This document shows, one piece after another, positions 135 to 60,470 of a DNA stretch of 64,000 nucleotides (position 1 is the first letter of the stretch; each line of letters starts with the position of its first letter). Below the pieces are notes generated by a model. The model did no database searches. It worked only from the letters and a program-made list of their open reading frames with translations, and was not told the origin of the DNA. Made by a program: the position numbers and the translations under genes. This stretch comes from Megaustenia siamemsis (taxonomy: Eukaryota > Mollusca > Gastropoda > Stylommatophora > Ariophantidae), in contig JAVIAB010000159.1 in the NCBI GenBank assembly GCA_032433765.1, positions 60,617,043 to 60,681,042 on the forward strand, given 5' to 3'.

Positions 135-795
135 AACATCTGAATAATAAGAAAACATAAGTAATGGTCGTATTAAAAAAAAAAAACAATCATCACCATC
201 ATGCAGCATAAACATAACAAGGACACATCTAAAACAAGTGCACCGCGTCAAATATGTGGGCGCAATAATAACACCAGATGGAAGATGCACCAGAGAAATA
301 AAAAGCAGAATAGCTCAGGCCAAAATACCATTTTTAAAAATGAAGCAAGGAGAAAGAGAGTTCATCGGTGCTATGTAGAAACATTCTGACCTATGGAAGC
401 GAATCATGGACAGTAGACCAATAAATGAAAAGACGATTAAAGGTCGCAGAGATGGAATTTCTCAGAAGAGTGTTAAAAGTTCCCTGGACAGCTAAAAAGA
501 CCAATGCAGAAATTATCAAAGAGGACAACACAAAAAGGGAACTCCTAAAAAATCTGAAAGAAGCAATCAACATTTTTCGGGCACATCATGAGAAGAGGAA
601 ACTCGGAATACTTGGCTACAACTAACAATATAAAAGAAAAGAGAGATTGCCGAGGACAAAGAGAGAAAATGCTGGATAGCTTGGTGTCATGGCGTGGAAA
701 ACAGTCAACAACAGAACTGATACGATGAACTGTAGATAGAACATTGTGAAAGGACATGATCGCCTACGCCAACTGGTATGGCACATAATAATGAT
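135..795 (+). mobile_element. LINE family A, 3' fragment
   Basis: Decayed 3' part of a family A non-LTR retrotransposon. In broken frames it reads the post-RT region: remnants of KYLG-type sequence, then MKRRLKVAEMEFLRRVLKV, PWTAKKTN and a C-terminal basic segment. It ends at the sequence GGTATGGCACAT followed by AT-rich trimers near 795. The same order is seen in the longer copies at 2512-4258 and 53303-54030. Several frameshifts and stops rule out function. The 5' end is lost near 135, where the match to the NSKKTEVMVISKK region of the longer copy begins. The 134 bases before it show nothing recognisable. Confidence 0.85.
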
Positions 796-2512: not shown

Positions 2513-4258
2513 TAAAACAGAAATGTGAAGAAATGGAAAAACAACAAAATAAAGACTCACAATTTATGGACAATCAGTTAAATGAATTAACAGGAAGAAA
2601 AGAAGTCAAAGTTTCAGGATGTGTGAAATCAAAGGATGGAAATATAATAATGGGACAGGAGAAGACAACGGAAAGATGGACAGAATATATCAGTCAACTC
2701 TATGATGAGGAAAGACCAGAATTAAACAATTCAAATGACGACACAGGACCACCAATAATGCAGAGTGAAGTGGAGAACGCAATTCAACACATTAAAAGAT
2801 GCAAAGCTCCAGGCCCTGACAATATAACAATCGAAGAGATAAATTCATTAGGAGAGCTGGGAGTACAAGTCATAACAAAATTACTGATTAACATATATAA
2901 CACTGGACACATACCCGAAGATCTACTAAAATCTATCTTTGTAGCCATACCGAAGAAGTCAGGGGCCACTGATTGTGAAGACCATGGCACTATTAGTGTC
3001 ATGAGTCATATGACTAAAATATTACTAAGAATAATCATGAGACGTGTAAGGAACAAAATAAAACCAGAAATAAGTGAGGAACAATGTGGATTTGTGGAAG
3101 GAAAGGGCACCAATAATGCAATACACATGTTCAGAACATTGCTAGAAAGATCTATAGAGATAAAGAAAGATCTATATATGTGCTTTATAGACTACACGAA
3201 AGCATTTGACAAAGTAAAGCATGCGGAAATAATCAATATGCTAGAGAAATTAAACATTGATGGCAAGGTTCTGAGAATCATAAAAAAACATGTACTGGCA
3301 ACAAACAGCAGCTATACGAATTAATAACCAAACAGGAAAATTTCAATATATAAAGCAAGGAGTCAGACAAGGCTGTGTTCTGTCGCCGGATTTGTTTTCA
3401 CTTTACAGCGAATATATTATAAGATCAATAGTAGACAAAAAAGGAATTGAAGTCAGCGGTCACAACATAAATAATTTGCGATATGCGGATGACACAGTCT
3501 TAATAGCAGAGACAGAGAATGAACTACAAGAAATGATAGACATAATAGTAGAAGAAAGCAACAAGAAAGGTCTCAGTCTGAATAGTAAGAAAACAGAAGT
3601 AATGGTTATATCGAAGAAATAATCACCACCATCATGCAGCATAAAATTAAACGAGACAAATCTGAAACAAGTGCAACGTTTCAAATACTTGGGCACAATA
3701 ATAACATCAGATGGGAGATGCACCACAGAAATAAAAAGCAGAATAGCTCAGGCCAAAATAGCTTTTCAGAAAATGAAAAATATCTTATGCAACAAATCTA
3801 TGTCAATAAAAATTAGAAAGAGAGTTCATCGGTGATATATAGAACCAATTCTGACCTATGGAAGCGAATCATGGACAGTAGACAAACAAATGAAAAGACG
3901 ATTAGAGGGCACAGAAATGGGATTTCTCAGAAGAATGTTGAAAGTTCCCTGGACAGCTAAAAGGACCAATGAGGAAGTTCTCAAAGAGGCCAACACAAAA
4001 AGGGAGCTCTTAAAAACATCAGAAAGGAGCAATCAACATTTTTCGGGCACATCATGAGAAGAGGAAAGTTGGAATACTTGGTTACAACTGGCCAAATAAA
4101 AAGAAATAGAGATCGCGGGCGACAAAGAGAGAAAATACTGGATAGCTTGGTGTCATCGCAGGGAAAACATTCAACAACAGAACTGACACGATGCACTGTA
4201 GATAGAAGGTTGTGGAGGGACATGATCACCTGCGCCAACCGGTATGGCACATGATGAT
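2512..4258 (+). mobile_element. LINE family A, longest copy (5'-truncated)
   Basis: A 1.75-kb copy of a non-LTR retrotransposon lacking its endonuclease. It starts just before the reverse transcriptase domain, directly against the (TATAG)n tract, and ends at GGCACATGATGATGAT, where the 23-bp minisatellite resumes. Very short 3' ends made of trimers are known for RTE-clade LINEs, so RTE or a relative is the likely clade. This assignment is an inference. Confidence 0.9.
2533..4253 (+). pseudogene. Reverse transcriptase of LINE family A, broken
   Basis: The first frame, 2533-3324, carries the RT fingers and palm: KAPGPDNITIEE, VAIPKKSG, EEQCGFVEGKGT and the block-A aspartate in CFIDYTKAFDKV. 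A frameshift near 3295 moves the frame to 3290-3622, which carries RQGCVLSPDLFSLY (block B) and the catalytic YADDTVLIAE (block C). A TAA at 3620-3622 sits where another copy (53385-53395) has CAA, so it is a point nonsense mutation. The same frame then continues through KYLGTIITSDGRC and PWTAKRTNEE. A further stop lies near 3830 and another frameshift near 4015. The product would copy element RNA into DNA at a nicked target. This copy cannot. Confidence 0.9.
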
Positions 4259-20560: not shown

Positions 20561-20794
20561 TTGACTTTTCCCTGGACAGCTAAAAAGACCAATGAGAAAG
20601 TTCTCAAAGAGGCCAACACGAAAAGGGAGCTCTTAAAGAACATCAGAAAGAAGCAATCAACATTTTTGGGCACATCATGAGATGAGGAAAATTCGAATAC
20701 TTGGTTACAACTGGCAAAATAAATGGAAAGAGAGATCGCGGACGACAAAAAGAGAAAATACTGGATAGCTTGGTATCATGGCATGGAAAACAGT
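20561..20794 (+). mobile_element. LINE family A, left half of an interrupted copy
   Basis: Reads PWTAKKTNEKVLKEANTKRE and the following C-terminal region, then stops at GGAAAACAGT. The continuation CAACAACAGAACT is found at 31321. Uninterrupted copies at 690-725 and 53930-53960 read straight through this junction, so the 10.5 kb in between is an insertion. Confidence 0.93.
20789..20794. repeat. Left 6-bp target duplication
   Basis: AACAGT, duplicated at 31315-31320. Present once at the equivalent site of uninterrupted family A copies. Confidence 0.93.
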
Positions 20795-21283
20795 AGTAGT
20801 ATACAAGGGTCCACTAAGTCACATTTGACCCGTAAATTAACAAAGATATATAGTGTGGTGCGCGGCGCACCACATGCACATGAGAGACAGGGGGAGTTAA
20901 CCGTGACATTTCGTGTCGGGATGTTGACCTCTAGTCCCGGTGACCCGGAAGTGACCTGTTTATGTCTGGTGTGTCCTGGCTTTGGAGTTCTTGATCGACA
21001 GTGACAGGTTAGTAGATTATACAACATCATTGACAAACAATCAATATAAAACAGAAGACAAAGATATATTTTATTCTTTTATTATCTCAATAGGTGTATA
21101 ACATACATTGATATTATATAACATTACAAAAATATTCAGTACATTGAGTCAATATATAGTACATGGATAACATTTACTTATAGCTATGTAGTTGGGTGTC
21201 TGCTTAGCTCTATGTCATAAATGAATCATAAGGGGTGAAACTGTTAGAGTTTGCTGATTAGGCTAAGCTGGTAGTGTAAAGAG

Positions 21284-21681
21284 TTAAATATCTAGAGGCG
21301 TAGTCGAGACGTTATCATCAGCTACCTTTCTTTTTATATAGAAATAGGAAAGAGCATTTCTTGTTTGACTGTAGGAAAATATAGAATTATTTAAGACTTT
21401 GAAACCTACATTTTCCCACCCTTGGCCTTTTGCGTGGCGAGAACCTCTAAAAACATATCTTTATCTAATTTGTTGTGTTGCTTGCTTAGCCCTTTACAAC
21501 TGATTTTATCGTAATCCCCACTACAATGGTACGTCTTACTACATAAGCTAACAAGAGCTGTCCCTTCGTACTCTAATTTAAAAAGACCAGGCGTTCGTTT
21601 GGTATACGCTTTAACACCCTTACAGTTTATACATTCTGTCTTGCTAGTATGTTCATCGCAGCGATGGGTGTTGGAGGTCGC
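21284..21681 (-). pseudogene. Family B DNA polymerase C-terminus (left arm)
   Basis: Mirror copy of the remnant at 30427-30824, differing by isolated bases. It carries the same frameshift and the same stop at 21284-21286. The N-terminal exonuclease and polymerase palm are absent; the frame runs into the 33-bp array at its upstream end. Confidence 0.7.
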
Positions 21682-22365
21682 CTAGTGTGTAATAAGGGGT
21701 GTATAGGGGTCGTCTAGTGTGTCGTGATGGGTGTATAGAGGTCGGCTAGTATGTCGTGATGGGTGTACGGAGGTCGTCTAGTGTGTCACATTGGGTGTAT
21801 AGAGGGCGTTTAGTGTGTCATGATGGTTGTATAGGGGTCGTCTAGTGTGTCATGATGGTTGTATAGGGGTCGTCTAGTGTGTCATGATGGTTGTATAGGG
21901 GTCGTCTAGTGTGCCGTGATGGGTGTACGCAGGTCGTCTAGTGTGTCATATTGGGTGTATAGAGGGCGTTTAGTGTGTCATGATGGTTGTATAGGGGTCG
22001 TCTAGTGTGTCATGATGGTTGTATAGGGGTCGTCTAGTATGTCGTGATGGGTGTACGGAGGTCGTCTAGTGTGTCATATTGGGTGTATAGAGGGCGTTTA
22101 GTGTGTCATGATGGTTGTATAGGGGTCGTCTAGTGTGTCATGATGGTTGTATAGGGGTCGTCTAGTGTGCCATGATGGGTGCATGGAGGGCGGCTAGTAT
22201 GTCGTGATGGGTGTAAGGAGGTCGTCTAGTGGGGTATGATGGTTGTATGGAGGTCGTCTAGTGTGTCATATTGGGTGTATAGAGGGCGTCTAGTGTGTCA
22301 TGATGGGTGTATGTAGGTCGTTTAGTGTATCGTGATGGGTGTATGGAGGTCGTCTACTATTGCCG
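21675..22365. repeat. 33-bp array, left arm
   Basis: About 20 copies of GTCGTCTAGTGTGTCATGAT plus GGTTGTATAGGGG, with TATTGGGTGTATAGAGGGCG variants. It replaces the region where upstream polymerase sequence would be expected. Confidence 0.95.
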
Positions 22366-22449
22366 GGGACGGGGAGTGGCATCTGAAATGGAGGTCATCG
22401 AGTGTGGTATGTGGGGTGTATGGAGGTTGTCTGGTATATCATACTTTAA

Positions 22450-22890
22450 TCAACCAATAAGAAAAATGAAGGAACATTACATTCAACATTACTTATCTTA
22501 ACTACTTTACATCAATACAGTTGAATAACGTGTTATCGTTAAGTCTTACCATACGTTAAGAGAAAACATTCAAACTTACAGTATAAAATATAGTCTCAAT
22601 CATCTACACTGAATATAACCTATTATCGATAACCATTAACATACTTTAAGAGAAAACAAGCCAACTTACGGTGCAAAACTCCGCTAGACTGAAGTGTAGT
22701 ATGACCTTCCTTGAATCAACCAAACTTATAACGCCGTCTAGTTTAAATATAGCCTGGTAAGAAATGAATAAATTAACCAATCAGCGAGTGACTATGCCAG
22801 CATCGACTAATACCTGGATCAACCAATCAGAGAAGAGTATTAGTATAGGAGGCGGAGCAAAGAAATGACTGACAGGTGGATTAACCAATC
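22450..22890 (+). promoter_or_regulatory. CCAAT-box cluster with GC box, left arm
   Basis: Four CCAAT motifs in one orientation at 22454, 22777, 22823 and 22885, three of them in the context AACCAATCAG. A GC-rich GGAGGCGGAGC lies at 22848-22858, just before the ATG at 22865. CCAAT boxes bind NF-Y in animals. Clustering next to a GC box suggests a promoter firing towards the loop, but no TATA box or confirmed gene is seen. Confidence 0.45.
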
Positions 22891-23059
22891 AGAGAAGTGC
22901 GTTAGCCCAAGCGTAGGTTGTGGCTGTCGGGTCAGCAGTGGGGGAAAAATGTTGGGTGGTGGATTACTTGAACTCGTTTTGACCCCTGAGGCAATTCCAG
23001 AAGAGTACTATGACCTCATTTTGACCGCTGAAGGCTTTAAGACCAATGTTTTCAACTAA
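22865..23059 (+). CDS. Small open frame of unknown function, left arm
   Basis: A 64-residue frame starting MTDRWINQSEKC, with a glycine-rich middle (SSGGKMLGGGLL) and ending in EGFKTNVFN. It begins right after the CCAAT/GC cluster. The mirror frame in the right arm (28971-29243) runs 26 residues longer because a base change removes this stop. Nothing about it is recognisable; it may be a first exon or chance. Confidence 0.25.
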   Translation: MTDRWINQSEKCVSPSVGCGCRVSSGGKMLGGGLLELVLTPEAIPEEYYDLILTAEGFKTNVFN

Positions 23060-23199
23060 AACGAACGACATACATCATTAAAGGTGATTACTTCAGCTCT
23101 TAGACTTTGGAGTTCCATATCTTTATCACTTGATTGAATGACAGACAACAGTAAAGATGATCATTTCAGGTAAGAAAACTTAGTTCCAAACCCTAAAAT

Positions 23200-24600
23200 T
23201 TCTACTCATATTCACAAATTTTGATGCAAAACCCTTACAATTTAGTCCCAAAGTGATACTAGTTCGACACGACAGTTGTAAATGTTATATGCAAAGTCCA
23301 AAAGTTTTTCAAAAAGATAACCTAAACTCAAAATAGTTAGACACAAAGCCCAACAATTTATATGCAAAGTCTAAAAAGTTACTCCAAAAGACAACTAATG
23401 TAACACTTAACCCCAAAATTTCGTCGCATAACCAAACAGTTGAACTCAAAAGCCTAAAAATTTAGTCCCAAAGTCGTAATTGTTCGACACGAAAGTCGTA
23501 AATGTTATATGCAAAGTCCAAAAAGTTTGTCAAAAAGACAACCTTAACTCAAAATAGTTAGACACAAAGCCCAACAATTTATATGCAAAGTCTAAAAAGT
23601 TACTCCAAAAGACAACTAATGTAACACTTAACCCCAAAATTTCGTCGCATAACCAAACAGTTGAACTCAAAAGCCTAAAAATTTAGTCCCAAAGTCATAA
23701 TTGTTCGACACAAAAGTCGTAAATTTTATATGCAAAGTCCAAAAGTTTGTCAAAAAGACAACCCAAACTCAAAATAGTTAGACACAAAGCCCAACAATTT
23801 ATATGCAAAGTCCAAAAAGTTACTCCAAAAGACAAATAATGTAACACTTAACCCCAAAATTTCGTCGCATAACCAAACAGTTGAACTCAAAAGCCTAAAA
23901 ATTTAGTCCCAAAGTCGTAATTGTTCGACACGAAAGTCGTAAATGTTATATGCAAAGTCCAAAAAGTTTGTCAAAAAGACAACCTAAACTCAAAATAGTT
24001 AGACACGAAAGGTCAACAATTTATATGCAAAGTCCAAAAAGTTACTCCAAAAGACAACTAATGTAACACTTAACCCCAAAATTTCGTCGCATAACCAAAC
24101 AGTTGAACTCAAAAGCCTAAAAATTTAGTCCCAAAGTCGTAATTGTTCGACACGAAAGTCGTAAATGTTATATGCAAAGTCCAAAAGTTTGTCAAAAAGA
24201 CAACCTAAACTCAAAATAGTTAGACACGAAAGGTCAAAAAAGTATATGCAAAGTCCAAAATGTTACGTCAAAAGACAACTAATATAACAACAAGCCCTAA
24301 AATTTCGTCGCGTAACCAAAAAGTTGAACTCAAAACCCTACAAAATTTAAACCCAAAGGCAAAATAGTTAGACACGAAAGACCAAATAGTTATATTCAAA
24401 GTCCAAAAGTTTGTCAAAAAGACAACCCAAACTCAAAAGTTTGTCAAAAAGACAACCCAAACTCAAAATAGTTAGACATGAAAGGTCAAAAAGGTATACT
24501 CAAAGTCCAAAATGTTACTTCAAAAGACAACTAATATAACAACAAGCCCCAAAACTTCGTCTCATAACCAAAAAGTTGAACTCAAAACCCTAAAAAGTGT
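23200..24600. repeat. About 220-bp tandem array, left arm
   Basis: Six or so units spaced about 220 bp (CCCCAAAATTTCGTCGCATA at about 23411, 23632, 23852 and 24074). Each is built of sub-motifs such as CAAAGTCCAAAAAGTT and CAAAAGACAACTAA that resemble one another, so the unit itself probably arose from a shorter repeat. Confidence 0.9.
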
Positions 24601-24949
24601 CCACTTATCAACCAAAGTCTTTAATACAGCTGAGAAAACCCTAATAAATAATTAAAATTTACTAAAAATGTTGCCCTTGATGATAGTTGCGACTGTGTCT
24701 AAATCATTATTGAAAATATTCATAGAACTCTAGTAAAAACCAAACACACTAAAACACCACAATGAAAGAATGAACTTAAAGTTCACGCCCCTGTCACAAC
24801 TCTGCTAAGAAAAGTACTGCAAAGCATGAAAGTTATGTCCCCTGCTATAACTCTACTAAACGAAAGTATTACCAAACACGTAGGTTACACTCCTACCATA
24901 ACCCACTAAGAAAAACAAGATTTTGCTTAAAATACCACATTTATGATTG

Positions 24950-25830
24950 TTACGCCCCTTGTCACTTTATGAGGGGACGCCCATGAAACTGTTAGAAATA
25001 GTAAATTTAAACTAGTGGCATACCCCAGCTGTTATATTAGACATCCCCATAGCAAAAATTTACTTAAAACTCACTTTTATGGTGGTTACCCCCTGACCCA
25101 TTTTTGAGGGCTACGCCCATGAAACTGTTAAAAATAGTAAATTTAACAGCTAGACATACCCTAAACTTTATATTAACCATCTCCGTATCAAGAATTTACA
25201 TAAAAACAACTTTTGAAATTACTACCCCTGTACCCATTTTTGGCGGTTACGCCCATGAAACTGTTAAAAATAGTCAATTTAACATCTAGACATACCACAA
25301 ACTTTATATTAAGCATCCCCGTATCAAGAATTTACTAAAAAACCACTTTTATGAGTGTTGCCCCTTACCCATTTTTGGCGGTTACGCCCATGAAAATGTT
25401 AAAAATAGTAAATTTAACATCTAGACATACCCCAAACTTCATTTTAGTCATCCCCATATCAAGAATTTACATAAAAACAACGTTTGAAATTACTAACCCT
25501 GTACCCATTTTTGGCGGTTACGCCCATGAAATCGATAAAAAATTGAAATTTAACCTCTAGACATACCCCAAACTTCACTTTAATCATCCCTGTATCAAGA
25601 ATTTACATAAAAACAACTTTTGAAATTTCTACACATGTACCCATTTTTGGCGGTTACGCCCATGAAACTGTTAAAAATAGTCAATTTAACATCTAGACAT
25701 ACCCCAAACTTTATATTAAGCATCCCCGTATCAAGAATTTACATAAAAACAACTTTTGAAATTACTACCCCTGTACCCATTTTTGGCGGTTACGCCCATG
25801 AAATCGATAAAAAAAATTGAAGTTTAACCT
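24950..25830. repeat. 136-bp tandem array, left arm
   Basis: Five full units with TTTTGGCGGTTACGCCCATG at about 25240, 25374, 25510, 25646 and 25782, and two diverged ones at the outer end. Frames reading RIYIKTTFEITTPVPIFGGY repeat with the unit and are not genes. Confidence 0.93.
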
Positions 25831-25901
25831 ATTGGCATACATCAAACATAATTTGTGACACGCCCATGTATCAAATTTGCCTAAAAAATCAACCAAAAAT
25901 T

Positions 25902-26073
25902 AGTAGTATACAATGTCAATTAGGGACCCCAAAAGTGCCTTTGAAGGCACATAAATCCTTATATAAATAGTCTACACGCATTTCGAGGCACAATTTTTGA
26001 TGCGTTTTCCCTTATATGAGAGTCTACATTTTTCCTTATAGTCTATCCATCCTAAGTGCCAATCTATACTACT
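25902..26073. other. Palindrome centre bounded by terminal-like motifs
   Basis: Inner arm ends reach AGTAGTATA on the left (25902-25910) and TATACTACT on the right (26065-26073), the same 9 bases found at the outer tips of the element. Between them is a 154-base single-copy loop containing the hairpin GTGCCTTTGAAGGCAC near 25940. The outer and inner tips of an arm point the same way. Confidence 0.7.
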
Positions 26074-26139
26074 AATTTTTGGTTGATTTTTTAGGCAAAT
26101 TTGATACATGGGCGTGTCACAAATTATGTTTGATGTATG

Positions 26140-27155
26140 CCAATAGGTTAAACTTCAATTTTTTTTATCGATTTCATGGGCGTAACCGCCAATATGGGTA
26201 CAGGGGTAGTAATTTCAAAAGTTGTTTTTATGTAAATTCTTGATACGGGGATGCTTAATATAAAGTTTGGGGTATGTCTAGATGATAAATTTACTATCTT
26301 TAACAGTTTCATGGGCGTAACCGCCAAAAATGGGTACAGGGGTAGTAATTTCAAAAGTTGTTTTTATGTAAATTCTTGATACGGGGATGCTTAATATAAA
26401 GTTTGGGGTATGTCTAGATGTTAAATTGACTATTTTTAACAGTTTCATGGGCGTAACCGCCAAAAATGGGTACATGTGTAGAAATTTCAAAAGTTGTTTT
26501 TATGTAAATTCTTGATACAGGGATGATTAAAATGAAGTTTGGGGTATGTCTAGAGGTTAAATTTCAATTTTCTATCGATTTCATGGGCGTAACCGCCAAA
26601 AATGGGTACAGGGTTAGTAATTTCAAACGTTGTTTTTATGTAAATTCTTGATATGGGGATGACTAAAATGAAGTTTGGGGTATGTCTAGATGTTAATTTT
26701 ACTATTTTTAACATTTTCATGGGCGTAACCGCCAAAAATGTGTAAGGGGCAACACTCATAAAAGTGGTTTTTTAGTAAATTCTTGATACGGGGATGCTTA
26801 ATATAAAGTTTGTGGTATGTCTAGATGTTAAATTGACTATTTTTAACAGTTTCATGGGCGTAACCGCCAAAAATGGGTACAGGGGTAGTAATTTCAAAAG
26901 TTGTTTTTATGTAAATTCTTGATACGGAGATGGTTAATATAAAGTTTAGGGTATGTCTAGCTGTTAAATTTACTATTTTTAACAGTTTCATGGGCGTAGC
27001 CCTCAAAAATGGGTCAGGGGGTAACCACCATAAAAGTGAGTTTTAAGTAAATTTTTGCTATGGGGATGTCTAATATAACAGCTGGGGTATGCCACTAGTT
27101 TAAATTTACTATTTCTAACAGTTTCATGGGCGTCCCCTCATAAAGGGACAAGGGG
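26140..27155. repeat. 136-bp tandem array, right arm
   Basis: Mirror of 24950-25830 with six full units (CATGGGCGTAACCGCC at about 26176, 26310, 26446, 26582, 26717 and 26852) and two diverged ones. The extra unit lies next to the loop. Confidence 0.93.
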
Positions 27156-27509
27156 CGTAACAATCATAAATGTGGTATTTTAAGCAAAATCTTGTTTTTC
27201 TTAGTGGGTTATGGTAGGAGTGTAACCTACGTGTTTGGTAATACTTTCGTTTAGTAGAGTTATAGCAGGGGACATAACTTTCATGCTTTGCAGTACTTTT
27301 CTTAGCAGAGTTGTGACAGGGGCGTGAACTTTAAGTTCATTCTTTCAATGTGGTGTTTTAGTGTGTTTGGTTTTTACTAGAGTTCTATGAATATTTTCAA
27401 TAATGATTTAGACACAGTCGCAACTATCATCAAGGGCAACATTTTTAGTAAATTTTAATTATTTATTAGGGTTTTCTCAGCTGTATTAAAGACTTTGGTT
27501 GATAAGTGG

Positions 27510-28910
27510 ACACTTTTTAGGGTTTTGAGTTCAACTTTTTGGTTATGAGACGAAGTTTTGGGGCTTGTTGTTATATTAGTTGTCTTTTGAAGTAACATTT
27601 TGGACTTTGAGTATACCTTTTTGACCTTTCATGTCTAACTATTTTGAGTTTGGGTTGTCTTTTTGACAAACTTTTGAGTTTGGGTTGACTTTTTGACAAA
27701 CTTTTGGACTTTGAATATAACTATTTGGTCTTTCGTGTCTAACTATTTTGCCTTTGGGTTTAAATTTTGTAGGGTTTTGAGTTCAACTTTTTGGTTACGC
27801 GACGAAATTTTAGGGCTTGTTGTTATATTAGTTGTCTTTTGACGTAACATTTTGGACTTTGCATATACTTTTTTGACCTTTCGTGTCTAACTATTTTGAG
27901 TTTAGGTTGTCTTTTTGACAAACTTTTGGACTTTGCATATAACATTTACGACTTTCGTGTCGAACAATTACGACTTTGGGACTAAATTTTTAGGCTTTTG
28001 AGTTCAACTGTTTGGTTATGCGACGAAATTTTGGGGTTAAGTGTTACATTAGTTGTCTTTTGGAGTAACTTTTTGGACTTTGCATATAAATTGTTGACCT
28101 TTCGTGTCTAACTATTTTGAGTTTAGGTTGTCTTTTTGACAAACTTTTTGGACTTTGCATATAACATTTACGACTTTCGTGTCGAACAATTACGACTTTG
28201 GGACTAAATTTTTAGGCTTTTGAGTTCAACTGTTTGGTTATGCGACGAAATTTTGGGGTTAAGTGTTACATTAGTTGTCTTTTGGAGTAACTTTTTGGAC
28301 TTTGCATATAAATTGTTGGGCTTTGTGTCTAACTATTTTGAGTTTAGGTTGTCTTTTTGACAAACTTTTGGACTTTGCATATAACATTTACGACTTTTGT
28401 GTCGAACAATTATGACTTTGGGACTAAATTTTTAGGCTTTTGAGTTCAACTGTTTGGTTATGCGACGAACTTTTGGGGTTAAGTGTTACATTAGTTGTCT
28501 TTTGGAGTAACTTTTTAGACTTTGCATATAAATTGTTGGGCTTTGTGTCTAACTATTTTGAGTTAAGGTTGTCTTTTTGCCAAACTTTTGGACTTTGAAT
28601 GTAACTATTTGGTCTTTTGTGTCGAACTAGTATCACTTTGGGACTAAATTTTTAGGCTTTTGAGTTCAACTGTTTGGTTATGCGACGAAATTTTGGGGTT
28701 AAGTGTTACATTAGTTGTCTTTTGGAGTAACTTTTTAGACTTTGCATATAAATTGTTGGGCTTTGTGTCTAACTATTTTGAGTTTAGGTTATCTTTTTGA
28801 AAAACTTTGGACTTTGCATATAACATTTACAACTGTCGTGTCGAACTAGTATCACTTTGGGACTAAATTGTAAGGGTTTTGCATCAAAATTTGTGAATAT
28901 GAGTAGAAAT
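27510..28910. repeat. About 220-bp tandem array, right arm
   Basis: Mirror of 23200-24600 and nearly the same length, with a few unit-specific differences such as the segment near 28585. Confidence 0.9.
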
Positions 28911-28970
28911 TTTAGGGTTTGGAACTAAGTTTTCTTACCTGAAATGATCATCTTTACTGTTGTCTGTCAT

Positions 28971-29243
28971 TCAATCAAGTGATAAAGATATGGAACTCCA
29001 AAGTCTAAGAGCTGAAGTAATCACCTTTAATGATGTATGTCGTTCGTTGAAGTGGAAAACATTGGTCTTAAAGCCTTCAGCGGTCAAAATGAGGTCATAG
29101 AACTCTTCTGGAATTGCCTCAGGGGTCAAAACGAGTTCAAGTAATCCACCACCCAACATTTTTCCCCCACTGCTGACCCGACAGCCACAACCTACGCTTG
29201 GGCTAACGCACTTCTCTGATTGGTTAATCCACCTGTCAGTCAT
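28971..29243 (-). CDS. Small open frame of unknown function, right arm
   Basis: Mirror of the left-arm frame and identical at the start (MTDRWINQSEKC). It is longer (90 residues) because the left arm's early stop is a sense codon here. It follows the mirrored CCAAT/GC cluster. The difference in length between arms argues against strong coding constraint. Confidence 0.25.
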   Translation of the reverse strand: MTDRWINQSEKCVSPSVGCGCRVSSGGKMLGGGLLELVLTPEAIPEEFYDLILTAEGFKTNVFHFNERHTSLKVITSALRLWSSISLSLD

Positions 29244-29658
29244 TTCTTTGCTCCGCCTCCTATACTAATACTCTTCTCTGATTGGTTGATCCAGGTATCA
29301 GTCGATGCTGGCATAGTCACTCGCTGATTGGTTAATTTATTAATTTCTTACCAGGCTATATTTAAACTAGACGGCGTTATAAGTTTGGTTGATTCAAGGA
29401 AGGTCATACTACACTTCAGTCTAGCGGAGTTTTGCACCGTAAGTTGGCTTGTTTTCTCTTAAAGTATGTTAAGGGTTATCGATAAAAGGTTATATTCAGT
29501 GTAGATGATTGAGACTATATTTTATACTGTAAGTTTGAATGTTTTCTCTTAACGTATGGTAAGACTTAACGATAACACGTTATTCAACTGTATTGATGTA
29601 AAGTAGTTAAGATAAGTAATGTTGAATGTAATGTTCCTTCATTTTTCTTATTGGTTGA
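29219..29658 (-). promoter_or_regulatory. CCAAT-box cluster with GC box, right arm
   Basis: Mirror of the left-arm cluster, seen as CTGATTGGTT motifs and GCTCCGCCTCC on the plus strand. Confidence 0.45.
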
Positions 29659-29747
29659 TTAAAGTATGATATACCAGACAACCGCCATACACCCCACATA
29701 CCACACTAGATGACCTCCATTTCAGATGCCACTCCCCGTCCCCGGCA

Positions 29748-30435
29748 ATAGTAGACGACCTCCATACACCCATCACGATACACTAAACGACCTACATACA
29801 CCCATCATGACACACTAGACGCCCTCTATACACCCAATATGACACACTAGACGACCTCCATACAACCATCATACCCCACTAGACGACCTCCTTACACCCA
29901 TCACGACATACTAGCCGCCCTCCATGCACCCATCATGGCACACTAGACGACCCCTATACAACCATCATGACACATTAGACGACCCCTATACAACCATCAT
30001 GACACACTAAACGCCCTCTATACACCCAATATGACACACTAGACGACCTCCGTACACCCATCACGACATACTAGACGACCCCTATACAACCATCATGACA
30101 CACTAGACGACCCCTATACAACCATCATGACACACTAAACGCCCTCTATACACCCAATATGACACACTAGACGACCTGCGTACACACATCACGGCACACT
30201 AGACGACCCCTATACAACCATCATGACACACTAGACGACCCCTATACAACCATCATGACACACTAGACGACCCCTATACAACCATCATGACACACTAAAC
30301 GCCCTCTATACACCCAATGTGACACACTAGACGACCTCCGTACACCCATGACGACAAACTAGCCGACCTCTATACACCCATCACGACACACTAGACGACC
30401 CCTATACACCCCTTATTACACACTAGGCGACCTCC
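29748..30435. repeat. 33-bp array, right arm
   Basis: Mirror of 21675-22365, units of CCCCTATACAACCATCATGA plus CACACTAGACGA. Confidence 0.95.
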
Positions 30436-30824
30436 AACACCCATCGCTGCGATGAACATACTAGCAAGACAGAATGTATAAACTGTAAGGGTGTTAAAGC
30501 GTATACCAAACGAACGCCTGGTCTTTTTAAATTAGAGTACGAAGGGACAGCTCTTGTTAGCTTATGTAGTAAGACGTACCATTGTAGTGGGGATTACGAT
30601 AAAATCAGTTGTAAAGGGCTAAGCAAGCAACACAACAAATTAGATAAAGATATGTTTTTAGAGGTTCTCGCCACGCAAAAGGCCAAGGGTGGGAAAATGT
30701 AGGTTTCAAAGTCTTAAATAATTCTATATTTTCCTACAGTCAAACAAGAAATGTTCTTTCCTATTTCTATATAAAAAGAAAGGTAGCTGATGATAACGTC
30801 TCGACTACGCCTCTAGATATTTAA
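30427..30824 (+). pseudogene. Family B DNA polymerase C-terminus (right arm)
   Basis: The first frame (30427-30702) contains TPGLFKLEYEG, LCSKTYHCSG and KGLSKQHNKLDKDMF and stops at TAG 30700-30702. Overlapping it, a second frame continues the same conserved tail (including YFYIKRKV and STTPLDI) to TAA 30822-30824. A single frameshift near 30690 therefore separates the two. These motifs are those of the C-terminal tail of protein-primed family B polymerases encoded by Polinton-like elements and related animal viruses. That enzyme would replicate the element DNA from a terminal protein. The catalytic palm and exonuclease are missing, so the remnant is inactive. An AATAAAA signal follows at about 31025. 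Assignment rests on motif recognition, not a search. Confidence 0.7.
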
Positions 30825-31314
30825 CTCTTTACACTACCAGCTTAGCCTAATCAGCAAACTCTAACAGTTTCACCCCTTATGATTCATTTATGACATAGAG
30901 CTAAGCAGACACCCAACTACATAGCTATAAGTAAATGTTATCCATGTACTATATATTGACTCAATGTACTGAATATTTTTGTAATGTTATATAATATCAA
31001 TGTATGTTATACACCTATTGAGATAATAAAAGAATAAAATATATCTTTGTCTTCTGTTTTATATTGATTGTTTGTCAATGATGTTGTATAATCTACTAAC
31101 CTGTCACTGTCGATCAAGAACTCCAAAGCCAGGACACACCAGACATAAACAGGTCACTTCCGGGTCACCGGGACTAGAGGTCAACATCCCGACACGAAAT
31201 GTCACGGTTAACTCCCCCTGTCTCTCATGTGCATGTGGTGCGCCGCGCACCACACTATATATCTTTGTTAATTTACGGGTCAAATGTGACTTAGTTGGAC
31301 CCTTGTATACTACT

Positions 31315-31320
31315 AACAGT
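31315..31320. repeat. Right 6-bp target duplication
   Basis: AACAGT, identical to 20789-20794. Confidence 0.93.
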
Positions 31321-33042: not shown

Positions 33043-33741
33043 TTATTTGACTGTTGGTTTGTCACGATTCTGCCACAGCCAGCACGACGCTCTTTCGGTT
33101 GACTCAGCAATAGTCTTCAATGTTCTTGACCGCATCCATCCCTTAATTCCTAGCATCTTTAAGAGGTCGTAGAGGGATTTGGTTGTGAGTCCTCTGGCAC
33201 TAACCACCACCGAAAACAATCTACTCTCGTGTCCCTGCTGTCTCAACTCGGTGGTGAGATCCTTGTATTTGGATACTTTAAATATATGCTGTTCTTGTAT
33301 CCTAGATTCAAATGGCACTGTGAGTTCTATTAAGATGACCTGGGTCATATTTGATGTGTAGAGAGCAATTTCAGGACGCATTTTAGATCTCTTAATGCAC
33401 TCTCGGTACTTCCCTCGACCTAGGAGGTAAACCGCCATCTCCCAATCGTTTGCTATGTCCAGGATAGTGAAGTCGCTCCAGTAGTTCTGCTTGGGGCGTG
33501 CGGCCTATCCCGCTCTCAAAAAGTAGGTGTTAGTCGTAGCTGGTCGAACTTTATAGTTGGCCTTCATCCGCGCCCCATCCACGGCGGCAGTCAGTTCATG
33601 CAGCACTCTGTTGTGTCGCCATGTGTACCGCCCTTGACCTAGTGCTGTCTTGCATGAGGAAAGAACATACTCCATCATCTGTCTTCCCCCCACTTCACAA
33701 TGTTGTATGGTGATGGTAGAAGGTCGTACATTGATTGTCAT
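33043..33741 (-). pseudogene. LINE R C-terminal domain
   Basis: Downstream of the array the minus strand reads YVLSSCKTALGQGRYTWRHN, a Cys-containing, arginine-rich region. After a short gap, 33043-33438 reads RSKMRPEIALYT, VILIELTVPFE and AERASCWLWQNR. The spacing RPE...IELTVP resembles a PD-(D/E)XK nuclease core, which in site-specific LINEs cuts the target. This is inferred from pattern only. A stop near 33505 separates the two frames. Confidence 0.65.
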
Positions 33742-36280
33742 CTGTCTTCCCCCACTTCACAAGGTTGCATGCTGATGGTAGAAGGTCGTACATCGATTGT
33801 CATCTGTCTTCCCACACTTCACAAGGTTGTCTGGTGATGGTAGAAGGTCGTACATCGATTGTCATCTGTCTTCCCCCACTTCACAAGGTTGCATGCTGAT
33901 GGTAGAAGGTCGTACATCGATCGTCATCTGTCTTCCCCCACTTCACAAGGTTGCATGCTGATGGTAGAAGATCGTACATCGATTGTCATCTGTCTTCTCC
34001 CACTTCACAAGGTTGCATGCTGATGGTAGAAGGTCGTACATCGATTGTCATCTGTCTTCCCCCACTTCACAAGGTTGCATGCTGATGGTAGAAGGTCGTA
34101 CATCGATTGTCATCTGTCTTCCCCCACTTCACAAGGTTGCATGCTGATGGTAGAAGGTCGTACATCGATTGTCATCTGTCTTCCCCCACTTCACAAGGTT
34201 GCATGCTTATGGTAGAAGGTCGTACATCGATTGTCATCTGTCTTCCCCCACTTCACAAGGTTGCATGCTGATGGTAGAAGGTCGTACATCGATTGTCATC
34301 TGTCTTCCCCCACTTCACAAGGTTGCATGCTGATGGTAGAAGGTCGTACATCGATCGTCATCTGTCTTCCCACACTTCACGAGGTTGCATGCTGATGGTA
34401 GAAGGTCGTACATCGATTGTCATCTGTCTTCCCCCACTTCACAAGGTTGTATGCTGATGGTAGAAGGTCGTACATCGATTGTCATCTGTCTTCCCCCACT
34501 TCACGAGGTAACATGCTGATGGTTGAAGGTCGTACATTGATTGTCATCTGTCTTCCCCCACTTCACGAGGTTGCATGCTGATGGTTGAAGGTCGTACATT
34601 GATTGTCATCTGTCTTCCCCCACTTCACGAGGTTGCATGCTGATGGTTGAAGTTCGTACATTGATTGTCATATGTCTTCCCCCACTTCACAAGGTTGCAT
34701 GCTGATGGTAGAAGGTCGTACATCGATTGCCATCTGTCTTCCCCCACTTCACAAGGTTGCATGCTGGTGGTAGAAGGTCGTACATCGATTGTCATCTGTC
34801 TTCCCACACTTCACGAGGTTGCATGCTGATGGTAGAAGGTCGTACATCGATTGTCATCTGTCTTCCCCCACTTCACAAGGTTGCATGCTGATGGTAGAAG
34901 GTCGTACATCGATTGTCATCTGTCTTCCCCCACTTCACGAGGTTGTATGCTGATGGTAGAAGGTCGTACATCGATTGTCATCCGTCTTCCCCCACTTCAC
35001 AAGGTTGTATGCTGATGGTAGAAGGTCGTACATCGATTGCCATCTGTCTTCCCACACTTCACGAGGTTGCATGCTGATGGTAGAAGGTCGTACATCGATT
35101 GTCATCTGTCTTCCCCCACTCCACAAGGTTGCATGCTGATGGTAGAAGGTCGTACATCGATTGTCATCTGTCTTCCCCCACTTCACAAGGTTGCATGCTG
35201 ATGGTAGAAGGTCGTACATCGATTGTCATCTGTCTTCCCCCACTTCACAAGGTTGCATGCTGATGGTAGAAGGTCGTACATCGATCGTCATCTGTCTTCC
35301 CCCACTTCACGAGGTTGCATGTTGATGGTAGAAGGTCGTACATCAATTGTCATCTGTCTTCCCCCACTTCACAAGGTTGTATGCTGATGGTAGAAGGTCG
35401 TACATCGATTGTCATCTGTCTTCCCCCACTTCACGAGGTAACATGCTGATGGTTGAAGGTCGTACATTGATTGTCATCTGTCTTCCCCCACTTCACGAGG
35501 TTGCATGCTGATGGTTGAAGTTCGTACATTGATTGTCATCTGTCTTCCCCCACTTCACAAGGTTGCATGCTGATGGTAGAAGGTCGTACATCGATTGCCA
35601 TCTGTCTTCCCCAACTTCACAAGGTTGCATGCTGGTGGTAGAAGGTCGTACATCGATTGTCATCTGTCTTCCCACACTTCACGAGGTTGCATGCTGATGG
35701 TAGAAGGTCGTACATTGATTGTCATCTGTCTTCCCCCCCCCCCCCCCCTCACAAGGTTGCATGCTGATGGTAGAAGGTCGTACATCGATTGTCATCTGTC
35801 TTCCCCCACTTCACGAGGTTGTATGCTGATGGTAGAAGGTCGTACATCGATTGTCATCCGTCTTCCCCCACTTCACAAGGTTGTATGCAGATGGTAGAAG
35901 GTCGTACATCGATTGCCATCTGTCTTCCCACACTTCACGAGGTTGCATGCTGATGGTAGAAGGTCGTACATCGATTGTCATCTGTCTTCCCCCACTTCAT
36001 AAGGTTGTATGCTGGTGGTAAAAGGTCGTACATCGATTGTCATCTGTCTTCCCCCACTTCACGAGGTTGTATGCTGATGGTAGAAGGTCGTACATCGATT
36101 GTCATCTGTCTTCCCCCATTTCACGAGGTTGCATGCTGATGGTAGAAGGTCGTACATCGATTGTCATCTGTCTTCCCACACTTCACGAGGTTGCATGCTG
36201 ATGGTAGAAGGTCGTACATCGATTGTCATCTGTCTTCCCCCACTTCACAAGGTTGTATGCTGATGGTAGAAGGTCGTGCA
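33676..36280. repeat. 62-bp minisatellite within LINE R
   Basis: About 42 copies with an exact 62-base period. On the minus strand the unit encodes MYDLLPSACNLVKWGKTDD, a segment of the LINE R protein between its post-RT region and its Cys-rich region, so the array is amplified coding sequence. As 62 is not a multiple of three, each added unit shifts the frame. A 15-unit (930-bp) block carrying the rare variant CACGAGGTAACATG recurs at 34501 and 35431. One unit contains a C homopolymer near 35735. Confidence 0.95.
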
Positions 36281-36282
36281 GC

Positions 36283-38161
36283 GGTGTCATATGTCACATG
36301 TCATTCCATGTTTGTGTCCTCTGCAAGGCCATATTCCATGTGGTCCATTGGCCTTGCTCCATTTGTTGTGCTGACTTTTGTACACGCTTGTTCTCCTGGA
36401 CATCTCTGATCTCCCGGACTACCATGTCCCTACGTTGTCTATTTGATGCCTTTGACCACAATCGGATGTTTCCGTGACCAAATCCACGTCTGTTGGTCTG
36501 CGTGTAGCCCATTACTTCCTTTAGCTGGAGACTCTCACGTGCTTCGTGTACTGCTGCACACGCCTGCCACTTCCGACCGGTCTTCACTGTGGGTTCCACT
36601 GTTCGGACAGTCTCGTCTGACGAACTTTGCAGCATAACTGCCCGTCTGGTCTTGCCGGATTTATATTGCTCTAGGACTGACTTGAAAGGAAGGACCAACG
36701 TGGCTTTCTTACAATACAGCGCAACATCCGTCAGACCTGGTGGTACTCCCAGCCATTTCCGCGTGTACCTGCTGATCTTGCTCTCCATCGCTACCACCGT
36801 ACTTGAGCTGATCTCGTATATCAGAAGAGGCCATAGCAGTTTTGGTATCAACATGAACTGGAGGCACCAGATTTTAAACTTTCCTAAAAGTCTACTCCTA
36901 TCGAAGATATGTAGCCCTTGCTCTGCCGTCTCTCTTACTCTCTGGACTGCTTTCGTGTCTTTCAATGAGGCGGCATATACTCTGCCTAGACTCTTTATTG
37001 GCTCCTCGCAGACGGTTGGGAGCATCTGTTTAGCCACACTGAATGTGACTTGCTTGGTCTTCCCTCGTCTGATGGATAGGCTTCGTGACTTCCTTGGTTT
37101 GAAGCTCATCCGGCACCACACAATGAGTACGGCCATGCGTTCACGCATGCTGCGGGCGTGGCATGTTCTGATGCTAGGACCGTGGTGTCATCCATAAATG
37201 CTCTAAGTGGTGGCATGTGGTACCCACCTCGAAGGTCTGGTCCTTTTCCAACTCCCTCTGCTGCCTTTAGTATTATCAGCATCGCCATCACGAAGATTAT
37301 GGGCGAAATTTTACAGCCCATCACAATGCCGACTTGCAATTCTATCAAGTCGGTCGTGTATTCCTTTGTGGAAAAACGCACAGTGAAGCCGGTAAAATAC
37401 AGTCTGAGCATGGCGGTCACACTCTGGGGTACATGGTACATTCGGAAAGCCTGCCAAATCATCTGACGTGGGACTGATCCATATGCGTTAGCAAGATCCA
37501 CCAATATGACGTCTAGATCTAGCTTCTCGGTTTTTGCTCTCTGTATCGCGTCCCATATCATTGTCGCGTGCTCCAAGCATCCGGGGACACCATGGACTCC
37601 CCCTTCTGTATCCGTTCTCCATGTGGTACGAGGTGAGTCTCTTTGCCATTACAGAAAAGAATACTTTACCTTCCACATTCAGTAGGGAGATTGGTCTGAA
37701 CTGTGTATTCTCATTTGAGTTCAGTTCCTCTGGAATGTACACGCCATTGGCCTTCTTCCATTCCTGGCTTGCAATCTGCCTCTTCCATGCACTCCTGAAC
37801 AGCCGGTGCAGTCGCTTCAGTACCTCTGGACATCTTTTGTAAACCGCGTATGGAACGCCATTTGGACCTGGGGCTGAGTTGTTGCAGGCTCTGTGAACTA
37901 CATTAGCCACTTCTTGTCGCGTCGGAGGCCTCTCATTGAATGGGGTGCCCGGTTCGCTCGCCACATCAGCCCTGTCATCGACTTAAGCGGTTCAACTCTC
38001 TGGCTGTCCGAATAGGTCTCTCTTAGATGTTTCTCTAGATCTTCCTTGCTGACTTTTAATGTTCCAGATCTTGGTGGTTCAAACAGCTCCTTTGCAAACT
38101 TGAACGAGTCTTTGAAGAACGTTTCCCTGGCCTTCTTGGTTGCTTTTCTTTTCCGATACAA
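36283..38161 (-). pseudogene. LINE R reverse transcriptase, broken
   Basis: Down the minus strand: pre-RT basic region (38161-37898), RT start with NNSAPGPNGVPYAVYKR and RPISLLNVEGKVFF (37964-37488), block A in VILVDLANAYGSVP, block B-like MGCKISPIIF, and the catalytic AFMDDTTVLA (37576-37106). The 284-residue post-RT region (37148-36294) reads FKPRKSRSLSIRRGK, LLWPLLIYEI and RRDMVVREIRDVQE. Three frameshifts separate these frames, near 37950, 37600 and 37130. The protein would carry out target-primed reverse transcription; this copy is dead. Confidence 0.85.
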
Positions 38162-53302: not shown

Positions 53303-54030
53303 TAGTAGAAGAAGAAGTAAAGAAAGCAACAATAAAACTCTGAATCTGAATAGTAAGAAAACAAAAGTAATGGTCATATCGAAGAAACAATCATCACCAT
53401 CATGCAGCATAAAAATAAACAGGACAAATCTGAAACAAGTGCAACGCGTCAAATACTAGGACACTAAATAACAACAGATGGAAGATGCACCACATAAATA
53501 AACAGCAGAATAGCTCAGGCCAAAATAGCTTTTAAAAATATTAAAATCGTCTTATGCATCAAATCTATGCCAAAAGAATTGAGAAAGAGAGTGCTTTGGT
53601 GCTATATAGAGCCATTTCTGACCTAAGGAAGTGGATAATGGACAATAAAAAAACAAATGAAAAGACGATTAGAGGCCATAGAGATGGGTTTTCTCAGAAT
53701 AATGTTGAAAATTATCTGGACAGCTAAAAGGGTAACGAGGAAATTCAAAGAGGCCAACACAAATAGGGAACTCCTAAGAAACATTAGAAAAAAAAAACAA
53801 TCAACATTTTTGGGGAACATCATGAGAAGAGGAAAGTTGGAATACTTGGTTACATCTTAGAAAAAAATACAGTGAAAGAGAGATCGTGGATGACAAAGAG
53901 AGAAAATACTCAATAGCTTGGTGTCATGGAGTGGAAAACAGTCAACAACAGAACTGATACGATGTGCGGTAGGTAAAAGATTGTGGAAGGATGTGATCGC
54001 CTACGCCAAATGGTATGGCACATGATGATG
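53303..54030 (+). mobile_element. LINE family A, 3' part
   Basis: Reads LNSKKTKVMVISKKQSSPSC and further C-terminal family A sequence, ending in GGCACATGATGATGATAATG. Its intact CAA codon near 53388 shows that the TAA at 3620 in the longer copy is a mutation. Confidence 0.88.
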
Positions 54031-58700: not shown

Positions 58701-59884
58701 TCTTTAACATCTATTCATCTACCTTCCCTAATCCACATTCCTTTCCAATTCTCTAAATACTATCATCTGCATCCATTCCCCTCCGTCTACTTTCTCTATT
58801 CTTCCACTTCCGTTCCCTATCATCTATCTTCCGTCTTCTAATTCCATTCCCCACCCACTGCCCTCCTTCGTCTACATTCATTCCACATCTTTTACCTTCG
58901 ATTTTCCACATCCATTTCCAATCCTATAATTTCCCTCTTCTTCTACACCCAATCGTCACCTTCTATCTTCCCTATTCTTCTACATCCATTTATCACCCTC
59001 TACTTTCCCTTTTCTACATCCATTTCTCACATTCTGCCTTCCCACTTCTACGTCCATTCCCAACGACGACCTTCCCTCTTTTACATCAATTCACCATCCT
59101 CTACTTTCCGTATTCTTCATCTATTCCCCATCCTCTACGTTCCCTCTTGTACATCCCCTCCGAACCCTCTACCTGCACTCTTCTTCTTCATCCATTTCCC
59201 ACCTTCAACTTTCCCCTCTTCTACATCCAAATCCCAACTTCTACATTACCTCTTCTTCATCAAATCCTCACCCTCTAGATTCCCTCTTCTACATCCATTA
59301 CACAACCTCTACCATATCTCTTCTACATCAATTCCCCACCTTCTATCTTCCCTCTTTTACATCCATTCCCCTACTTCTACCTTCCGTCTTCAACACCAAT
59401 TTCCTTTACGCTACCTTCCCTCTTCTTCTACATCCATTCCCCACCTTCTACCTTCCCTCTTCTTTTACATCCATTCCCTATCCTCTAACTTCAGTCTTTT
59501 TCAACATCCATTCATCACAATGGACGTTCCCTCTTCTACTTCCATTCCTCATCCTCTACTTTCCCTCTTTTTCTACCTTCATCCCCATTCTCTTCCTTCC
59601 CTCTTCAACATTCATTCACCACCCTCTACCTTCGCGTTTCTACAACCATTCCCAATCTTATACCTTCCCTCTTCTTCTTCATCCATTCCCCATACTCTAC
59701 CTTCATCTTCTTCTACATCTATTCACCATCCTCTACCTTCCGTCTTCTTCTACATCCGTTCTCCATCTTCTACATTCCCCTCTTCTATAAGATCCATTCT
59801 CCATCCTCTACTTTCCCTGTGCTACATCCATTCCACACCCTCTATATTCCATCTTTTTCATTACCCATACCCCAATCTCTACTT

Positions 59885-60470
59885 TCCTTCTTCTACTACA
59901 TCCATTTATCACGCTCTACCTTCCCTCTTCAACATCCATTTATCACGCTCTACCTTCCCTCTTCAACATCCATTTATCACGCTCTACCTTTCCTCTTCTA
60001 CATCCATTTATCACGCTCTACCTTCCCTCTTCTACATCCATTTATCACGCTCTACCTTCCCTCTTCTACATCCATTTATCACGCTCTACCTTCCCTCTTC
60101 TACATCCATTTATCACGCTCTACCTTCCCTCTTCTACATCCATTTATCACGCTCTACCTTCCCTCTTCTACATCCATTTATCACGCTCTACCTTCCCTCT
60201 TCTACATCCATTTATCACGCTCTACCTTCCCTCTTCTACATCCATTTATCACGCTCTACCTTCCCTCTTCTACATCCATTTATCACGCTCTACCTTCCCT
60301 CTTCTACATCCATTTATCACGCTCTACCTTCCCACTTCTACATCCATTTATCACGCTCTACCTTCCCTCTTCTACATCCATTTATCACGCTCTACCTTCC
60401 CACTTCTACATCCATTTATCACGCTCTACCTTCCCTCTTCTACATCCATTTATCACGCTCTACTTTCCCT
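59885..60470. repeat. 34-bp homogeneous sub-array
   Basis: About 17 nearly identical copies of CATTTATCACGCTCTACCTT plus CCCTCTTCTACATC. Differences are single bases (for example CCCACTTC in two units). It is much younger than the surrounding diverged units. Confidence 0.95.

Follow-up and report, generated by a model that had tools for sequence, protein, structure and literature searches.

A family of palindromic Polinton derivatives in the genome of the gastropod Megaustenia siamemsis

How does a palindrome with arms of 5 kb come to be inserted in a long interspersed nuclear element (LINE) of a gastropod, and does it stand alone? The question is raised by a stretch of 64,000 nucleotides from Megaustenia siamemsis (C154:60617043-60681042 of the 2.59-Gb, 155-contig genome; the window), in which an element at positions 20795-31314 is flanked by the 6-bp target site duplication (TSD) AACAGT. 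The answer to which the analysis points, at a probability that we put at roughly 60%, is that the element belongs to a family of snap-back satellites of Polintons which carry the DNA polymerase gene PolB and are integrated in trans by the Polinton integrase, the window holding a copy of the type in which tandem arrays replace the body of PolB.

The unit of this family is an inverted dimer of the PolB-bearing end of a Polinton, with the 3' end of the gene toward the terminus, and its centre is closed by a loop of ~150-200 bp with Polinton-type termini. In versions of the PolB type each arm contains the greater part of PolB, sometimes with full-length open frames on both sides, and further Polinton genes were not detected in them. 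Copies insert with 6-bp TSDs, and the arms within a copy are near-identical and, throughout the copies examined, agree in type. Integration in trans is likely, and the homogenisation of the arms is, we infer, achieved through snap-back copying. A literature search, with preprints and most subscription journals outside its coverage, showed no palindromic or fold-back Polinton among the matches listed.

One insertion out of a large family

From either terminus of the window element AGTAGTATACAAGGGTCC reads inward (20795-20812 and 31297-31314), and the two arms form an inverted dimer whose arm-to-arm alignment holds 39 mismatches in 5105 columns (99.24% identity); their difference in length is explained by an additional 135-bp repeat unit in the right arm together with three single-base gaps. 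A sequence-only reading of this DNA had placed a palindrome with mirror-image arms and a 154-bp loop at 20789..31320; palindrome and arms stand, but that span includes the TSD, and the loop measures 172 bp when the inner AGTAGTATA motifs are taken as its bounds. Rightly, it had also described a clean 6-bp duplication and a split LINE whose intact form is present in the window: the duplication lies on both sides, two uninterrupted LINE copies provide the empty site (Table 1), and two further empty sites, at 4128-4206 and 62853-62936, read AACATT instead of AACAGT.

The insertion is one member of a large family, which confirms the earlier observation and makes it larger than reported. A search with the leftmost 712 bp of the window element, its TSD counted in, gave 40 scored places out of 3920 candidates, and the exact 22-bp terminus occurs genome-wide 344 times in forward and 334 times in reverse orientation, with 0 occurrences of the reversed control. 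The first 100 termini in the list yield 43 forward/reverse pairs that enclose 7.8-14.3 kb (median 10.8 kb); extrapolated from this pairing, the family would comprise hundreds of members. Twenty copies besides that of the window were fetched, one of which (L031/L032) is a segmental duplicate of another (L033/L034) and has its right end outside the fetched stretch. Each of the 20 is a palindrome whose longest single inverted match extends over 2.3-6.2 kb at 94.8-99.9% identity (bounded by the fetched stretch in L045/L046 and L047/L048), and the recurrence of the same palindrome in 20/20 other copies excludes chance. AGTAGTATAC was found at both ends of the window element, at 20/20 left ends and at 19/19 right ends fetched; the termini read AGTAGTATACAAGGG at all left and the 19 fetched right ends, except for the right end of L048 with AGTAGTATACAAGGGTTC.

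Other copies with 6-bp duplications, whose absence would have refuted the sequence-only reading by its own account, do exist: an exact TSD flanks 18 of the 20 fetched copies, that is 18 of the 19 with both ends fetched, and 19/20 with the window included. In L025/L026 one extra AGT unit stands between terminus and TSD, which would fit slippage on a three-base repeat, comparable to the jump-back initiation of adenovirus. Insertion sites differ among the copies, save for L031/L032 and L033/L034, which represent a single insertion duplicated with its flank. As the window element and 20/20 fetched copies are palindromes, the suggestion that the element moved as a unit is supported, and the other option offered with it, that it became palindromic after insertion, is rejected.

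Two further observations concern individual copies. Two palindromes ~59 kb apart on one contig (C116:60.49 and 60.55 Mb) have the flank ACAAAACAAACA in common, a segmental duplication including the element. One fetched copy with a nested LINE measures 17.4 kb, and LINE reverse-transcriptase frames are nested in the middle of the large copies L021/L022 and L023/L024.

PolB, the two types of copies and the Polintons of the same genome

Six fetched copies (L011/12, L013/14, L027/28, L039/40, L041/42 and L043/44) have the PolB body, 91-100% covered, in all 12 arms, with the gene reading outward from the centre and its 3' end near the terminus. Coverage is 0% in the remaining 28 fetched stretches and in both window arms, where arrays are present instead. 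In this array type (14/20 fetched copies and the window) 32-bp and 221-bp arrays replace the PolB body; the outermost 490 bp are common to both types, as are the 3' end of PolB, the array of 136-bp units and the inner end. An arm-by-arm check found 0/20 copies with one arm of each type (the 221-bp array of L045 falling in the next stretch). The window copy contains no intact gene, only the C-terminal PolB tail with its frame broken, which is matched by the PolB query P0001 in two tblastn pieces per arm (left, 97% and 92% identity, E 8.7e-50; right, 97% and 90%, E 3e-49).

Among the six PolB-type copies fetched, L039/L040 alone has an open frame of 1424 aa in each arm, and its two arms differ in 1/1424 codons; C2H2 fingers are present in 5/6 (L039/L040 being without a profile check). 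Genome-wide, 136 scored PolB matches at 97-100% identity, out of 7838 first-look candidates, include 43 divergent pairs with a median spacing of 10.5 kb; frames of at least 1400 aa are found in 41/136 matches and in both arms of 9/43 pairs. With L040 as the reference, the ratio of nonsynonymous to synonymous changes (pN/pS) amounts to 0.24-0.56 for other copies, and the PolB protein has therefore been under some constraint in the past. Upstream of the PolB start in L012 (about 850-1230), a TATA-like box and an intron-like GTAAGT...TTTCTACAG-ATG stretch, recognized by eye, suggest a promoter and an intron in the 5' untranslated region.

Polymerase and exonuclease motifs are legible by eye in the host PolB. 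The Pfam profile DNA_pol_B_2 gave no score on host PolB fragments, and PF03175 matched 7/12 aligned PolB members, the host query not among them; across the host genome PF03175 has 12 matches at 6 places, missing the PolB clade of the palindromes, and none of these lies within 25 kb of a listed match to integrase (INT) or major capsid protein (MCP). Region 520-1113 of P0001 matches 1760 proteins of 7996 candidates scored; the named ones are from animals, the best named ones from gastropods, and many carry PF03175 and C2H2 fingers. A structural model of the homologue P0087 (mean predicted local distance difference test 87.7) has phi29 polymerase with terminal protein as its best match (E 1.8e-7). 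A scan of viral contigs with the PolB alignment gave 19 pattern matches and 0 relatives.

Between polymerase motifs A and B, animal Polinton-type PolBs possess a Vsr-like endonuclease insert with conserved E, VDG and GCxxHG (P0001 ~620-690; alignment A1), which scored 1.5e-4 with the NCBIfam profile vsr on P0087 and weakly with Pfam Vsr (4/12 members, best 0.015).

A PolB of the same kind (42% identity) stands on contig QGON01000029.1 (L049) beside an ATPase, an integrase with rve and chromo domains and an adenain-like protease; two open reading frames (ORFs) which, from gene order and length, we take to be penton and MCP had no match in Pfam. This nearly complete animal Polinton is filed under the metagenome-assembled genome of a bacterial symbiont and is probably host contamination there. 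None of its ATPase, INT, penton, MCP and protease gave a tblastn match at E<=1 in the window element or in the 40 stretches of the 20 copies (the right end of L031/L032 lying outside), and the same INT and MCP queries do reach host genes elsewhere, at 43-49% identity. Its MCP-position and integrase proteins have 96 and 113 scored places in the host genome, nearly all with full-length open frames, and 39/113 INT matches lie at most 8 kb from a listed MCP match. Neither INT nor MCP was found within 25 kb of PolB (0/136, against these 113 INT and 96 MCP scored matches).

Polintons that could provide functions in trans were located in the same genome. At C73:33016121-33030457, PolB, INT and MCP matches lie inside terminal inverted repeats (TIRs) of 414 bp (92% identical) that open AGTAGTATAG, given also as AGTAGTATAGATTGG; the flanks, within a minisatellite, agree in 5/6 TSD bases, and PolB has the orientation of the palindrome, its 3' end to the terminus. 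A 14.4-kb element (C123:106315460-106329853) has an MCP match inside and the exact TSD TACTTG. A third pair with the AGTAGTATA start (C41:63828600-63840480; exact TSD ATCGAA) is known from its termini and TSD, with no listed INT or MCP match inside. Polinton TSDs were thus read at three Polinton-type pairs, two of them with gene matches inside; the AGTAGTATA start is common to the palindromes and these two, with one TSD exact and one 5/6. As a side observation, candidates in the thousands at first look, with about 100 scored, mostly open genes each for the capsid position and the integrase, go along with integrase frames of at least three lengths (366, 369 and 370 aa), a recent Polinton burst in the host genome.

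The sequence-only reading had drawn the Polinton link from termini and TSD. It is now carried by PolB in each arm of 6/20 other copies, by the C-terminal PolB tail in the window arms and by Polintons of the same genome with the AGTAGTATA start and 6-bp TSDs. The derivation of the element from a Polinton is firm.

Origin and maintenance of the palindrome

The outer 850 bp of the arms were compared in 18 copies (17 fetched ones and the window), with L041 and L043 (insertions in the left arm) and the duplicate L031/L032 omitted and left-versus-right distances set aside, the sides of a palindrome being arbitrary. In 15/18 copies the nearest arm is the copy's own partner (1000 shuffles: mean 0.8, maximum 5/18); the median divergence is 0.24% between the arms of one copy and 3.5% between copies, and 6/18 copies show zero arm differences. 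Partner arms being nearest and mixed copies absent, both arms go back to a single template at the time of insertion or not long before it, or else have been converted later; snap-back copying gives single-template arms directly, with gene conversion as its main rival.

At the centre, exact AGTAGTAT motifs flank the loop on both sides in 12/20 fetched copies, on one side in 7/20 and on neither in 1/20 (L019/L020). In L011, L029 and L032 the loop is 94-96% identical to the subterminal region of the C73 Polinton; the match is poorer in other copies (85% in the window). One end of the window loop equals the 24-bp terminus AGTAGTATAGATTGGCACTTAGGA of the C123 Polinton exactly, and the loops of other copies have different terminus variants. 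The arm ends at the loop, CCAAAAATT/AATTTTTGG, are inverted, and an ordinary nested insertion, which would give direct 6-bp repeats, is thereby rejected as the origin of the loop. A free miniature inverted-repeat transposable element (MITE) was rejected as well for the 4 loop matches fetched away from listed termini, the flanks of which identify 4/4 as palindrome centres, though a free MITE may exist elsewhere. If a strand folded back at a hairpin provided by an inserted Polinton end, a direct duplication would become inverted, which would cover loop, flanks and palindrome together.

The following course of events may be envisaged. A strand copied from the terminus would fold back at the hairpin of an inserted terminus fragment from a second Polinton and copy itself, which would yield the palindrome. 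The linear palindrome might then be replicated via protein priming by PolB, encoded either by the palindrome itself or by complete Polintons, with the AGTAGTA end serving the jump-back step, and repeated snap-back copying would provide both arms from one template in each cycle. The integrase of complete Polintons, with their common AGTAGTATA end, would insert the product in trans. The array-type copies, that of the window included, might represent a second-level parasite that has lost PolB.

Several observations weigh against this proposal. The family is known from chromosomal copies only, not from extrachromosomal or replicating DNA, and gene conversion after insertion could likewise homogenise the arms. 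The PolB of the C73 Polinton and that of the palindromes show 69% DNA identity, and the source Polinton of the arms was not found. Outer termini are common with the examined Polintons only over AGTAGTATA, so that the case for integration in trans is built on 9 bp and the length of the TSD. The partner is not the nearest arm in 3/18 copies: L021 and L011 are within about one difference of a near-identical other copy, and in L013 a ~140-bp indel between the arms disturbs the alignment. Unpaired are 14 of the first 100 listed termini, one merely through the end of the list, and 50/136 PolB matches have no partner in the scored list. The PolB frame is broken or shortened in at least one arm of 5/6 fetched PolB-type copies, and the pN/pS of 0.56 in L027/L028 means weak constraint. 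The zero for INT or MCP near PolB covers scored matches only, and by our own estimate chance would give about one neighbour or fewer; this zero alone is therefore no evidence of avoidance, which comes instead from what the fetched copies contain.

Gene conversion between the arms of the same Polinton-derived palindrome after insertion, instead of snap-back copying, is an unlikely explanation, if the least unlikely of the alternatives. The arms of palindromes on sex chromosomes can convert each other, which sets a precedent, and the arms here are long and close together; yet changes in one arm persist, with insertions splitting the left arms of L041 and L043 and the arms of L013 differing by ~140 bp. 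Mixed PolB/array copies are absent (0/20), and the 6/18 copies with zero differences over the outer 850 bp are expected if the arms were identical at the start. None of this evidence is decisive against gene conversion.

Decidedly less probable is an autonomous element, in which the Vsr-like endonuclease in PolB cuts the target and yields the 6-bp duplication, with no Polinton integrase needed. The conserved E, D and GCxxHG of the insert speak for it, as does the absence of any other detected Polinton gene from PolB-type copies. However, the Polinton on L049 has a PolB with the same insert plus an integrase, so the Vsr-like domain is no substitute for integrase there; array-type copies without PolB also have 6-bp TSDs (PolB in trans being conceivable), and the Vsr match is weak, with a best E of 1.5e-4.

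Very improbable is a fold-back element of the FB/Galileo kind (P superfamily) or another cut-and-paste element with long repetitive TIRs: similar long, internally repetitive inverted repeats are described for these elements (PMC3573991), but the Polinton PolB genes in the arms contradict this origin, and (AGT)2 termini together with a 6-bp TSD have been published as the signature of Mavericks (PMC8097293). When ORFs of 110 aa or longer were inspected by eye in 10 copies and the window element, they proved to be PolB, repeat-derived, flank and nested LINE frames, with no transposase recognized among them by eye and no transposase profile searched. A fold-back artefact of assembly or long reads, as is described in PMC12870357 and conceivable for the present assembly, is rejected on the exact TSDs particular to 18/20 copies plus the window and on the private substitutions, repeat counts and nested insertions that distinguish the arms of one copy.

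Returning to the snap-back satellite, its furthest-reaching form is offered tentatively and at somewhat less than even odds: a defective-interfering genome that a Polinton virus formed by snap-back may have become a heritable, self-renewing satellite, which would replicate in the form of a linear hairpin palindrome by means of its own doubled PolB, rebuild both arms from one template in each cycle, and obtain integrase and perhaps capsids from complete Polintons. If true, this would be a 'virophage of a transposon', with the array-type copies as a further parasite on the satellite. Polintons are placed at the root of many eukaryotic DNA viruses, and their replication has so far been inferred from the polymerase; fully palindromic products, arms rewritten together and one terminus with an extra AGT would constitute a natural record of it. 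The palindrome family makes protein priming, fold-back copying and integration in trans testable, and suggests a satellite that carries a replication gene and lives as a parasite of an endogenous virus-like element; it also shows that palindromes with arms of 5 kb are able to spread in an animal genome.

Table 1. Features of the window (positions counted from its first nucleotide)
Feature	Position	Strand	Basis
Left TSD, AACAGT	20789..20794	.	sequence
Left arm, 5107 bp; outer terminus AGTAGTATACAAGGGTCC, inner end ...CCAAAAATT	20795..25901	+	
Left-arm PolB C-terminal remnant, frame broken, 3' end toward terminus	21287..21585	-	tblastn P0001
Left-arm 32-bp tandem array, within block replacing PolB body	21663..22356	.	
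Left-arm 221-bp tandem array	23227..24438	.	
Left-arm 136-bp tandem array; module found in 20/20 fetched copies	24977..25803	.	
Loop, 172 bp, bounds AGTAGTATA...TATACTACT; resembles terminus and subterminal region of Polintons of the same genome	25902..26073	.	
Right arm, 5241 bp, left arm inverted	26074..31314	-	
Right-arm 136-bp tandem array, one unit longer than left	26172..27133	.	
Right-arm ~221-bp tandem array	27672..28881	.	
Right-arm 32-bp tandem array	29752..30445	.	
Right-arm PolB C-terminal remnant, frame broken	30523..30821	+	tblastn
Right TSD, AACAGT	31315..31320	.	sequence
Host LINE, uninterrupted copy, empty-site control	662..740	+	
Host LINE, second uninterrupted copy, empty-site control	53899..53982	+	

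Elsewhere in the window, a 62-bp tandem array of 42 copies (94% matches) occupies 33675-36295, and a 5-kb array of ~34-36-bp units at 55908-61051 displays extreme strand asymmetry, with a GC skew of about -0.9 over 56001-60000. A mitochondrial COX1 fragment, open under code 5, lies within a chromosome-sized contig (C151:10323780-10324580).

Comparison with known systems

Mavericks in vertebrates are recognized by (AGT)2 ends and 6-bp TSDs (PMC8097293), and the Polinton gene set and a length of 15-20 kb are given in PMC4028283. The palindrome shares with Polinton/Maverick elements the (AGT)2 terminus, the 6-bp TSD, the terminal inverted repeats and a C2H2-PolB of the same family. Unlike Polintons, the palindromes have no detected integrase, capsid-type, ATPase or protease genes, measure 7.8-14.3 kb between exact termini (43 pairs; 17.4 kb with a nested LINE), have inverted repeats that occupy nearly the entire element, and contain PolB twice. 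The element is a Polinton derivative and not a Polinton: termini, TSD and PolB agree, and integrase, capsid-type genes and size do not. PolB itself is present in the family in both arms of 6/20 copies, the window copy having the C-terminal tail only.

With FB/Galileo the palindrome has in common very long, internally repetitive inverted repeats; those elements use a transposase of the P superfamily and are not known to carry a polymerase. Like non-autonomous, MITE-like deletion derivatives, it would require enzymes in trans and retains the termini; unlike these, PolB-type copies keep a polymerase of up to ~1475 aa twice, and the palindrome greatly exceeds them in length.

Snapback genomes of adeno-associated virus (AAV), which belong to defective or satellite particles, are described as self-complementary, derived from one genome end and dependent on replication functions in trans, the 5' kind keeping part of the replication gene (PMC8235507). 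The palindrome is likewise a self-complementary dimer of one genome end and, by this analogy, would work most like the AAV snapback genomes. Replication of the latter is of the parvovirus hairpin type and is not known to involve a PolB. They also differ in their inheritance: in the available text of PMC8235507 the AAV snapback genomes are not described as a heritable, high-copy insertion family, whereas the palindromes form such a family.

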